In this document: positions 4,835 to 8,716 of the stretch, one piece after another
How the letters are laid out: every line of letters begins with the position of its first letter
Numbering within the stretch: the stretch's first letter is position 1
NCBI GenBank assembly: GCA_003646815.1
Contig: QMLQ01000008.1
Location: forward strand, 1 to 32,081
From: Deltaproteobacteria bacterium
Lineage (GTDB): Bacteria > Desulfobacterota > DSM-4660 > Desulfatiglandales > Desulfatiglandaceae
Length of the DNA: 32,081 nucleotides
Direction: 5' to 3'
The notes under the pieces: generated by a model
Database searches by the model: none
Seen by the model: the letters and a program-made list of their open reading frames with translations, nothing else
Told to the model about the DNA's origin: nothing
Translations under genes and position numbers: made by a program

Positions 4835-5656
4835 CTACCTCCTTGTGGAATACAGGTCCTCTTCACCCAGGTAGGCTTTAATAACGTCCGGATTCTTCTG
4901 GACCTCCTCCGGTGGTCCGTCCGTGATCTTGTTCCCGAAATTCAACACAAAAACATTATGAGAGATATCCATGACCACGCCCATATCATGTTCGACAAGA
5001 ATACAGGTCACTTTCCAGCGCGGCTCCTCATTGATATCCAGGATAAAACGGGCCATATCTTCCACTTCCTCAAGGTTCAGCCCTGCCAGGGGTTCATCAA
5101 GAAGAAGCAGTTCAGGGTTCAGGGCCAAGGCCCTTCCCAATTCTACTCTCTTCTGGAGTCCATATGGCAGCATGTGCACGGTCTTGTCCCGGATACTCTC
5201 AATTTCAAGGAGGTCAATGATCTCTTCCTCAATGAATTTCCTGGATTCCAGTTCCTCTTTTTTTGCCTTGCCCACATAAATGGAGCCGCTCACAATCCCT
5301 GACTTGAGATGGATGTGCCTGCCCAGTCGGATATTGTCGAGCACCGTCATTCCCCCAAACAGTTCAATCTTCTGAAAAGTTCTTGAAATGCCCAGCTCCG
5401 CACGGTGATACGGTCGGAGATGATTGACCGGCACTCCCTTGTAGTAGATATTCCCTTTTTGCGGCCGGTACAATCCGTTGATGCAATTCATCATGACCGT
5501 TTTTCCAGCCCCATTCGGGCCAATGATGGAATGAATCTCGCCTTTTTTCACTTCAAGGCTTACCCCGGCCAAGGCGGCCACTTTCCCGAAATACATGTGG
5601 ATATCTTCGAGCCTTAAGAGAGTATCTCCCTCTTTCACCTCCCCCACTTGCACCAT
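4835..5656 (-). CDS. livG: branched-chain amino acid ABC transporter ATP-binding protein (LivG family)
   Basis: Walker A GPNGAGKT, signature/Walker B LGRALALNPELLLLDEPLAGLN, EHDMGVVMDISHNVFVLNFG. Confidence 0.94.
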   Translation of the reverse strand: MVQVGEVKEGDTLLRLEDIHMYFGKVAALAGVSLEVKKGEIHSIIGPNGAGKTVMMNCINGLYRPQKGNIYYKGVPVNHLRPYHRAELGISRTFQKIELFGGMTVLDNIRLGRHIHLKSGIVSGSIYVGKAKKEELESRKFIEEEIIDLLEIESIRDKTVHMLPYGLQKRVELGRALALNPELLLLDEPLAGLNLEEVEDMARFILDINEEPRWKVTCILVEHDMGVVMDISHNVFVLNFGNKITDGPPEEVQKNPDVIKAYLGEEDLYSTRR

Positions 5657-5729
5657 ATGATCTGGCCTCCATTCTCGCTAAATGATGAACTTCACGGTTC
5701 TAGATGTGGAATTAAATCGGATGGGTTTA

Positions 5730-5910
5730 GGGCCTGTCATGAAATATCTATTCCATTCATGCACCTCGTCTTCAAGTTATCTTCAGTCGATCGCCAACAA
5801 CAAAGTCGTTGAAATAGTACAACTATTCCTGGAGCTTTGCTCAATCAGATCAACTAAAATTTAATCCAAACCGGAGCGCCTTAATGCAACACTTATTTAA
5901 TGACAGGCCC
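5730..5910. mobile_element. candidate MITE-like element, no coding capacity
   Basis: Terminal inverted repeats GGGCCTGTCATgAAATA (5730-5746) and TATTTaATGACAGGCCC (5894-5910), 16/17 matches; directly flanked by TTA (5727-5729) and TTA (5911-5913). Confidence 0.55.
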
Positions 5911-5989
5911 TTACTGCTAAATAAAGAGCTTACGTTCGAAAACCAGGAAGCGCTCTTGACATCCTCGAACATCAAGATCACGCCCATAC

Positions 5990-6018
5990 CATTTACTTAT
6001 TCGATTCTTTTTTGTCAA
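5990..6018 (-). promoter_or_regulatory. candidate sigma70-type promoter reading toward livG
   Basis: Minus strand TTGACA (6018-6013), 17-nt spacer, TAAATG (5995-5990); weak -10. Confidence 0.3.
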
Positions 6019-6051
6019 CACCTATTTGAAAAAAGCCCCAATGACCTTCCT

Positions 6052-7242
6052 TTATTTCCGGTTATTCTGCTCAAAAAAGCGCCTGGTTCTGACTTGCGGG
6101 ATGAGATTTTTTCTGCACTGCTCCAAGAAGTACTCGTCCGTCATCCCGGCAATAAAATCACGGACGATACCCGCAGGGGGTGTCTTCGCTTTGTAATCGG
6201 GGGACATCCCGTCAAGAAACTCCCGGTAGATGTCCGATGACTCATTTCCTTTTTCAAGATCATTCAGATATCGATTAAAAAGGAGTTCGAACATAATCCG
6301 TACTTTCCCCGTCTGGTCTTTTACCTTGGGATTTCGATAAATACGTTCCTGATTAAAGTTCTTGAGCTGTTTCAGTGACTCTCCAACCTTCTGGCTGAAA
6401 CAAAGAAATGGTTTGTCAAGACTGTTGGCAACAAGATCTTCCACCAGTCGATACACAATAGTCCCGTTGGAATCACCCAGCACCTCTCTACAACCGGCGG
6501 GGAGATCATTCCTCCGAATGAGGCCAAGACGAATGGCATCTTCGATGTCGCGTCCTACATAACTGATACTGTCTGCCATCCGAACCACGCATCCTTCCAG
6601 GGTCATGGGCCACATATCGAGCATCGGATCAGCAGATTTTTTTTCCATTTCACGATTGAGGATATCAAAGCTTTTCTTTCTGTTCGCTTCCAGTGCCTGT
6701 GAATGGATTTCTCCGTCATGGCAGAAAATCCCGTCAAGGACCTGGAGGGACAGATTCCAACCCCTCCCTTTCCGTTCAATCTCCTGAAGAAATCGGACAC
6801 CCTGGATATTGTGGAGGAAAGGGCCGATCTGGTGCTGCTGGCAAAGCTGGGAAAGAAATTTCTCCCCGTCATGCCCAAAAGGGGTGTGGCCGATATCATG
6901 CCCCAAGGCAATAGCCTCTATAAGATCTTCATTCAGCCGAAGCAGCCGCCCAACGGTGCGACCAATTTTTGAAACAAGCTGGACGTGCAATACCCGGTGG
7001 GTGATGTGGTCATTCTTGATAAGATAGAATACCTGTGTCTTGTCTATGTAGCGGGAGTAGGCCAGGGAGTGCAGGATACGGTCGGCATCAATGGAAAAAT
7101 TTTGCCGGTGTCCTCCACGCACCGCTGGTTCCTCTTTCATTCGTAGGGCATCCCTGCTCGGACACGCCAGGGGAGAAAGCCTTGTTAACTCGGAATTATC
7201 GAGAGCGACCCGTATTTCTCGAAGTGACGCGTTCACTTTCAA
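6052..7242 (-). CDS. dgt: deoxyguanosinetriphosphate triphosphohydrolase-like HD protein
   Basis: dGTPase/HD motifs EDLIEAIALGHDIGHTPFGHDGEKFL, RMADSISYVGRDIEDAIRLGLI; TTG start at 7242 overlaps the upstream ORF stop (TTGA). Confidence 0.88.
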   Translation of the reverse strand: MKVNASLREIRVALDNSELTRLSPLACPSRDALRMKEEPAVRGGHRQNFSIDADRILHSLAYSRYIDKTQVFYLIKNDHITHRVLHVQLVSKIGRTVGRLLRLNEDLIEAIALGHDIGHTPFGHDGEKFLSQLCQQHQIGPFLHNIQGVRFLQEIERKGRGWNLSLQVLDGIFCHDGEIHSQALEANRKKSFDILNREMEKKSADPMLDMWPMTLEGCVVRMADSISYVGRDIEDAIRLGLIRRNDLPAGCREVLGDSNGTIVYRLVEDLVANSLDKPFLCFSQKVGESLKQLKNFNQERIYRNPKVKDQTGKVRIMFELLFNRYLNDLEKGNESSDIYREFLDGMSPDYKAKTPPAGIVRDFIAGMTDEYFLEQCRKNLIPQVRTRRFFEQNNRK

Positions 7243-7493: not shown

Positions 7494-7855
7494 GAATTTT
7501 ACCCATCCTTATGGTCTGATCTCCAGTTTTGTTTACCACCGGACAAAAAACACTTTTTTTCTTGCACAAAATGCTCTTGAGTGTTATTTATATCTGCTTA
7601 TATTATTTGCGCGCTTCTACACCATATACCGCCACGCTTCCCCCTGGGAGCTTTGAAAACAACCATAGCAGTTTCGTTTGGAAACTTCAAGGCCCTGCCG
7701 TGGAAAAGGCGGCGGATGGGAGAATGCACGTAACAAACTTCGCAGATCCAGTGAGCCCCGGTGCCCGGTGCCTGGAAGGGTTTACTTTCATCTGGATCGA
7801 GGAAAAACTGTGGGAGGGAGATTCACCCGATATCTCCCGAGAAAAGGAGGAAATT

Positions 7856-8716
7856 ATGCTGGCAATTAACATGAAACAACTCCTGGAAGCAGGGGTCCAT
7901 TTCGGACACCAGACCCGGCGATGGAACCCGAAAATGAAACCGTACATATTCGGCGACAGAAACGGGATCCACATTATCGATCTGCAGAAAACGGTCAGGC
8001 TTTTCAGAACTGCCTATGATTTTATTACCAGGATCGTGGCCGATGGCTACTCGGTTCTTTTTGTAGGCACAAAAAAACAGGCCCATGATTCCGTTGTGGA
8101 AGAGAGCGAACGATGTGGCATGTTTTTCATGGTAAACAGGTGGCTTGGAGGCACGCTCACCAATTTCCAGACCATCCAGAGGAGTGTTGCCCGCCTCAAG
8201 GACCTGGAAACCATGAAAAATGACGGCACCATCGAGCGATATACCAAAAAGGAAGCGCTCAAGATGGAGAAAGAGCTTGCTAAGCTTGAAAAAAACCTCG
8301 GTGGCATCAAGAATATGGATGAATTGCCCGGGGCAGTATTCGTAGTTGATCCCAAGAGGGAACGAATAGCTGTGAAAGAGGCAAGAAAGCTTGGGATCCC
8401 GGTTGTTGCCATCGCTGATACAAACTGTGATCCGGATGAAATCGACTTTATTATCCCGGGAAATGATGACGCTATAAGGGCCATACGGTTGATCTGTTCA
8501 AAAATTGCCGATGCCTGTATCGAGGGACACAACCTGGCTGAAGAGCGGCTGAGGGCCGAGGCAGAAAAGCAGCACCAGGAAAAAGAAGAAAGTGAACCTG
8601 AGCCCCAGGTTCCGGAAGAAGGCTCAGCAGAAGGGCCGGAAGTAATAATCGTTTCCAAGAAAGAAGAGCTCCCTGGAGACGCATCCAAAGAAACCGGGGA
8701 AGTGGTTTCTGAATAA
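7856..8716 (+). CDS. rpsB: 30S ribosomal protein S2
   Basis: [46 protein letters not shown]...; start at 7856 behind AGGAGGAAATT, so the 7529 ORF start is over-extended. Confidence 0.97.

Follow-up and report, generated by a model that had tools for sequence, protein, structure and literature searches.

Bacterial MITEs are usually regarded as a pair of ends plus neutral filler. Among the described elements closest to the one analyzed here, Chunjie of Geobacter uraniireducens measures 178-235 bp and is inserted in a phosphate operon, according to the account given in a review (PMC10969869). The same account depicts the transcript of the ~190-bp MITE QMITE2 (Coxiella burnetii) as a single hairpin, long and stable, and presents ERIC/IRU and Correia as palindromic MITEs with RNA hairpins in untranslated regions and effects involving RNase E/III (PMC10969869). 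About half of the copies of the bcr1-bcr18 repeats of the Bacillus cereus group are transcribed (PMC3446304, PMC2267715), and the elements of the ISAzo13 family make 3-bp target site duplications (TSDs) (PMC10045372).

The window, a stretch of 32,081 nucleotides from a deltaproteobacterial assembly of the phylum Desulfobacterota (contig QMLQ01000008.1), carries an element of 181 bp whose features are given below. It is in our judgment highly probable that this element is a MITE mobilized by an ISAzo13 transposase and that selection acts on its minus strand in folded form, the folded molecule being probably RNA.

4835..5656, minus strand: livG-like ABC transporter ATPase (PF00005, PF12399); flanking gene, outside the element
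5727..5729, no strand: target site duplication, left copy, TTA (read directly; single copy in the empty site of the sister species)
5730..5910, minus strand: MITE, 181 bp; the minus strand (5910 to 5730) folds as a full-length hairpin (family alignment, covariation)
5730..5746, plus strand: left TIR GGGCCTGTCATGAAATA (read directly; inverted-pair scan; family TIRs; ISAzo13 TIRs)
5813..5827, no strand: apical hairpin AATAGT-ACA-ACTATT, tip of the long hairpin (read directly; paired in the family structure)
5894..5910, minus strand: right TIR TATTTAATGACAGGCCC (read directly; inverted-pair scan)
5911..5913, no strand: target site duplication, right copy, TTA (read directly; empty-site comparison)
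6052..7242, minus strand: HD-domain phosphohydrolase gene, upstream flank, same direction as livG; outside the element

An Insertion between Two Genes

The element sits between the HD-domain phosphohydrolase gene and livG, both located on the minus strand, and livG is transcribed in the same direction as the hairpin-forming strand. The first-pass annotation had described two TIRs (5730-5746 and 5894-5910) that match in 16 of 17 positions and are bracketed by TTA, which direct reading confirmed, and a small hairpin that was indeed found at 5813-5827. The distance to the livG start (5656), given there as about 75 bp, was measured as 74 bp, and an ORF check bore out that the interior contains no plausible gene; the plus-strand ORF that overlaps the element (5884-6240) had no Pfam match. 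The element thus combines a length of 181 bp and TIRs matching at 16/17 positions with the absence of a transposase ORF, as is typical of MITEs. The first-pass annotation suggested that the insertion possibly alters expression of the amino-acid transporter operon, an effect to be viewed as conjectural; no promoter-like site was found inside the element. Elsewhere in the window, the ORF for ribosomal protein S2 (7529-8716, plus strand) comprises 395 amino acids with the S2 domain beginning at residue 118, which points either to a start wrongly called too early or to an extended N-terminus.

When the whole window was scanned for 17-bp inverted pairs (at least 16/17 matches, at most 400 bp apart), the element's site alone was found, the same arms scoring again one register over. 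Since the corresponding scan of 20 Markov-shuffled windows gave a single match, the TIR pair is more than a product of chance. The inverted repeat extends beyond the 17 bp recognized earlier, as the element matches its own reverse complement with 62% identity over 187 bp.

The closest available relative, a sister species of the same genus (G001, contig C154), has the same gene order around the site. Its alignment with the window runs to base 5729, where the left TTA ends, and restarts after the right TTA; at the position of the 181-bp element it carries one TTTA, with the TTA in single copy. This site is empty, and the element in the window is therefore a real insertion. A long stem-loop in an intergenic region might also be read as a chance inverted repeat or as an ordinary transcription terminator, but this reading was rejected, as it is refuted by the empty site in G001 and opposed by the dispersed copies and their TSDs, by the rarity of such pairs in the window scan, and by the finding of no terminator-like site in the region of the element; we assign it practically no probability.

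A Family of Elements in the Desulfobacterota

A search with the window copy retrieved elements of the same length and about 62-70% identity from further genera within its family and order, and of 85 genomes of the order, 37 gave matches in a consensus search. An HMM run over the retrieved loci identified 136 distinct copies, 106 of them full-length; counting by core pattern also works but underestimates the divergent copies. With a covariance model, which matches the MITE of the window on the minus strand (E = 6.9e-25), relatives were found in 36 of the 297 phylum genomes sampled. The named matches stem from Desulfobacteraceae/Desulfobacterales, from other deltaproteobacterial metagenome assemblies and from one Candidatus Fischerbacteria assembly; the full-length copy in the latter (L103:6864-7042) lies outside the phylum and reflects either horizontal transfer or binning contamination.

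The copies have sharp borders and flanks that are unrelated from one copy to the next. Their flanking triplets are TAA on both sides in 45 cases, TTA on both sides in 32, and TTA/TAA in a single case. Differing between copies and agreeing within a copy, the triplet represents a 3-bp TWA target duplication and not element sequence. The first-pass annotation had proposed a MITE-like element, to be checked by a search for multiple copies with conserved ends and for empty sites. Both were found, and together with the TWA duplications they support that proposal. In one genome (G009), 102 TIR matches were counted versus one in the control, which indicates that the family was active recently.

Family members are typically 178-179 bp long. 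A subfamily of 202-203 bp (L156, L187, L194, L196, L210, L212, L083; genomes G035, G072, and G002) belongs in this sample mainly to genus g2, and internal-deletion forms range down to 37-79 bp and keep little beyond the element ends. The window's own genome (G000) contains one full copy and a few end fragments; it also has a hairpin of about 40 bp (C208:4846-4887; L003:1502-1541) that consists of two element ends alone and directly follows a TAA stop codon, and mini-elements of this kind (37-79 bp) are present in G009 and G016 (L253-L258). In G017, some copies (L043, L051, L056, L059) are recognizable only over their right 30-80 bp, as are single copies in G000 (L002) and G001 (L034); considered as possible long parents, these six loci proved to be truncated fragments beside ordinary genes. 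The covariance model additionally matches hairpin elements of 141-150 bp with quite different ends, for instance GAGACCTTTGAAAAATG (L311-L314, L317, L318; e.g., L311:1430-1573 and L318:106-246), which probably make up a separate palindromic MITE-like family, perhaps unrelated to the present one, in which the strand preference is the same.

Insertion Targets

Target triplets overlap a stop codon at 17 of 76 reconstructed insertion points (22%) versus 20 of 1122 control sites (1.8%), an odds ratio of 16 (p = 4e-12); YTWAR sites of the same loci served as controls. The copies avoid genes: 10 of the 76 insertion points fall inside an ORF, compared with 714 of the 1122 controls. Since ORFs were called mechanically, the stop-codon and ORF figures are estimates. 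A TWA triplet can be, or be complementary to, a stop codon, and it is duplicated upon insertion, so that insertions at stop codons leave the gene product intact. The bias towards stop codons and intergenic DNA reflects either a target preference or the loss of harmful insertions, two processes that are inseparable in these counts.

A Probable Parent Transposase of the ISAzo13 Family

Genome G009 contains one convergent TIR pair spaced 1910 bp apart (contig C203), with the TIR GGGCTCGCGCAAAAATAATTTCACATTTTTG and TAA on both sides, and the enclosed DNA encodes an ISAzo13-family transposase (PF07592, E = 6e-118). It is the one complete autonomous element found with the TIR and TSD of the family, and it lies in a relative, not in the genome of the window. 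Its TIR GGGCTCGCGCAAAAATAATTTCACATTTTTG is shared with the MITE family (GGGCTCGCGCAAAAATAACTTCACATTTTCGC); the MITE and this insertion sequence have only about 30 bp of the left end in common, and the interior of the latter is not the source of the MITE core. A second ISAzo13 element (1300 bp, ends GGAGCTGACAATAAATAACC / GGGTCTGACAATTAATAACC, TTA flanks) occurs in G035, and a third type with 23 matches and ends starting GAGTCTGTCCGTTAATAACTTGAAC occurs in G011; both have TIRs similar to those of the MITE as well as TWA duplications, and the tip of the window element, GGGCCTGTCAT, resembles GAGTCTGTC of the G011 element. The long form of the transposase is encoded by two ORFs, which stand in the same frame relation to each other in two species, G009 (L252:843-2650, contig C203) and G020 (L264:1519-3236, contig C259); in G009 an A8 run lies at the ORF junction, and the arrangement looks like programmed frameshifting. 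The 285-amino-acid upstream ORF has an N-terminal part of about 210 residues without a Pfam match above the cut-off.

The first-pass annotation had assigned the element to the IS5 family. A 3-bp TNA duplication and G-rich ends would suit a MITE of that family, driven by an IS5/IS1031-type transposase. However, none of the 30 loci with DDE_Tnp_1 (IS5/IS4-type) matches in 13 carrier genomes is bracketed by matching TIRs, so that no IS5-type transposase locus examined lies between GGGCTCGCGCAAAAATAA-type TIRs; a search with PF13586 for an IS5-type parent gave no match, and a candidate parent, L134, was discarded because its apparent match was the truncated end of a MITE next to an unrelated transposase. 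As the autonomous element with matching ends carries an ISAzo13 transposase and no DDE_Tnp_1 locus has such ends, the ISAzo13 label replaces that of IS5, whose involvement we regard as very improbable. That the element is an ISAzo13-type MITE is close to certain in our view, and judging from its ends and duplications it was probably mobilized by a transposase of this type. No ISAzo13 transposase is present in the available assemblies of the window's genome or its sister G001, and we therefore infer mobilization in trans from the relatives.

The Whole Element Is a Hairpin under Strand-Specific Constraint

When 75 distinct copies were aligned, the column pairs with the strongest covariation lay mostly on the antidiagonal and, by mutual information, spanned the element from its tips (9-177, 6-180) to near its center (77-108). 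Read in the plus orientation, a structure of 72 pairs leaves 88.2% of the cells paired, with 47 pairs double-changed and 379 double-change cells, whereas slid control structures reach at most 90 such cells and shuffles average 116. The minus orientation gives 70 pairs, 94.4% of cells paired, 45 of the 70 pairs double-changed, and 306 double-change cells, compared with at most 62 in slid controls. The whole element is thus a long hairpin that is maintained by compensatory change. Internal loops are conserved within the family, and a G.U pair (columns 35-150) is present in all 63 sequences. A search of Rfam gave no match above the gathering score.

The constraint acts on one strand, which is the minus strand in the window. 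Within pairs on the plus strand, A.C mismatches have a weighted count of 93 versus 35 for G.T; A.C on the plus strand corresponds to a G.U wobble on the minus strand, and the imbalance hence reveals a strand-specific constraint. The minus strand folds more stably in 63 of 63 aligned copies (mean -90 versus -62 kcal/mol), and relative to composition-preserving shuffles its mean z is -11.5 versus -7.1 for the plus strand, with the minus strand more extreme in 28 of 30 copies. In the window copy, the minus strand forms a single full-length hairpin (-70.0 kcal/mol, z = -7.6), the corresponding values for the plus strand being -42.1 kcal/mol and z = -3.7. Among 27 copies that the covariance model drew from other genomes, almost all of them in this phylum and a few of them short elements of possibly different family, the model strand is the more stable in every case, which is weaker evidence given that the model favors its own strand. 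The unpaired positions of the minus strand consist of 42% A and 30% G (72% purine), and of 5% C. In counts uncorrected for phylogeny or mosaic copies, recent single transitions in pairs kept minus-strand pairing in 87 cases and broke it in 42, and double changes that preserve pairing were frequent even between near neighbors (28 columns kept versus 8 broken).

Such an abundance of double changes between near neighbors would also be expected if the hairpin were kept by mutation and not by selection, through template switching in which replication of the quasi-palindrome repeatedly turns one arm into a copy of the other and thereby mimics compensatory change. Template switching at quasi-palindromes is a known mechanism, and it could contribute to the matching of the arms. 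Under this mechanism, however, all pairs should be Watson-Crick and the two strands equivalent, yet the wobble classes (about 93 to 35) and the stability of the minus strand in all 63 copies display a strand bias; moreover, the conserved internal loops and the universal G.U pair have persisted unconverted. Mutation as the sole keeper of the hairpin is for these reasons an improbable explanation, and we have good confidence in selection on one folded strand.

What Is the Folded Molecule?

Covariation and strand-specific pairing, as known from structured RNAs, are both found in the family, and it is rather probable, from these sequence patterns, that the selected strand acts as RNA. Folded single-stranded DNA, serving replication-coupled transposition or recognition by a host protein or the transposase, is an unlikely, though by no means negligible, candidate for the same role. 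The element is mobile, G.T ranks among the least unfavorable DNA mismatches and is tolerated in folded single-stranded DNA, and strand-specific DNA hairpins are known from attC sites and REP/IS200-type systems; the slight bias in gene orientation would likewise suit it. TIRs, a TWA duplication and a DDE (ISAzo13) transposase, on the other hand, point to transposition of double-stranded DNA, and the purine-rich unpaired positions resemble structured RNA. With respect to the flanking genes, 34 copies are in sense, 21 in antisense, 19 in convergent, and 18 in divergent orientation, a weak skew that does not favor a simple role in mRNA.

We envision the following course of events. An ISAzo13 transposase supplied in trans would bind the tips of the TIRs, cut with a 3-nt stagger at YTWAR, and paste the element into its new site; the window copy would now be an orphan, its own draft genome having yielded no ISAzo13 transposase. 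Less certain than these mobilization steps is that the minus strand would act as a folded single strand, most likely as a hairpin RNA arising from read-through or from a promoter in the flank. Its compactness might let the element sit in untranslated regions and be tolerated by the host, and the hairpin is possibly a substrate of RNase III/E or an element of mRNA stability. Should the mRNA of the liv operon begin upstream of the element, the window copy would be part of its 5' untranslated region.

The outermost ~12 bases vary greatly from one subfamily to another, and left and right tips largely agree within a copy (for example GGGCCTGGCAAA/TTTGCCAGGCCC, GGGCTTGACAAC/GTTGTCAAGCCC, and GGGACGGGGGCG/CGCCCCCGTCCC). 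The core, unlike these variable tips, is recognizable throughout the phylum (36/297 genomes). The simplest interpretation of variable tips around a conserved core is that the tips follow different transposases and that the folded core owes its conservation to something else. We tentatively extend this into a proposal that is somewhat doubtful as a whole, namely that the family is a mobile structured RNA, with an inner core of about 130-150 nt forming an RNA hairpin from one strand, with interchangeable tips that track different ISAzo13 transposases, and with selection across the Desulfobacterota acting on the folded RNA and not on the ends alone.

Comparison with Known Systems

The MITE shares with the ISAzo13 family (PF07592 / NF033519) the type of TIR (GG-N9-AAATAAC..) and the 3-bp TWA duplication, but it lacks a transposase and its core hairpin does not come from the interior of the insertion sequence. 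An ISAzo13 element paired with a MITE was not found in the searched literature; with the MITE described here, this poorly studied family gains a non-autonomous partner, whose habit of targeting stop codons can make insertions harmless. Like bcr1 and its relatives, the family consists of interspersed MITE-like repeats that are able to fold, although the Bacillus repeats reside in an unrelated host, are unrelated in sequence as far as known, and have no stated ISAzo13 link. ERIC/IRU and Correia make TA and not TWA duplications. As described in the review account, these two are palindromic MITEs with hairpin RNA in untranslated regions, like the family studied here, and they are set apart by other hosts and by having no link to ISAzo13. 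Chunjie is likened to the window MITE by its description only, in terms of similar size and another host of deltaproteobacterial type, and the account mentions neither covariation nor strand specificity (PMC10969869). QMITE2, too, has a transcript depicted as a single long hairpin but, by the same account, differs in its 7-9 bp duplications and its TIRs, with no strand-specific covariation reported (PMC10969869).

In the family described here, the constraint on the filler is as strong as that on the ends and extends over the full length, on one strand, and across much of a phylum, and this renders testable the question of whether a bacterial MITE is selected as RNA. Palindromic and transcribed MITEs as such are already known from bcr1, ERIC, Correia, and QMITE2; as far as the searched literature shows, the link to ISAzo13, a phylum-wide family, and strand-specific covariation over an entire element are new.
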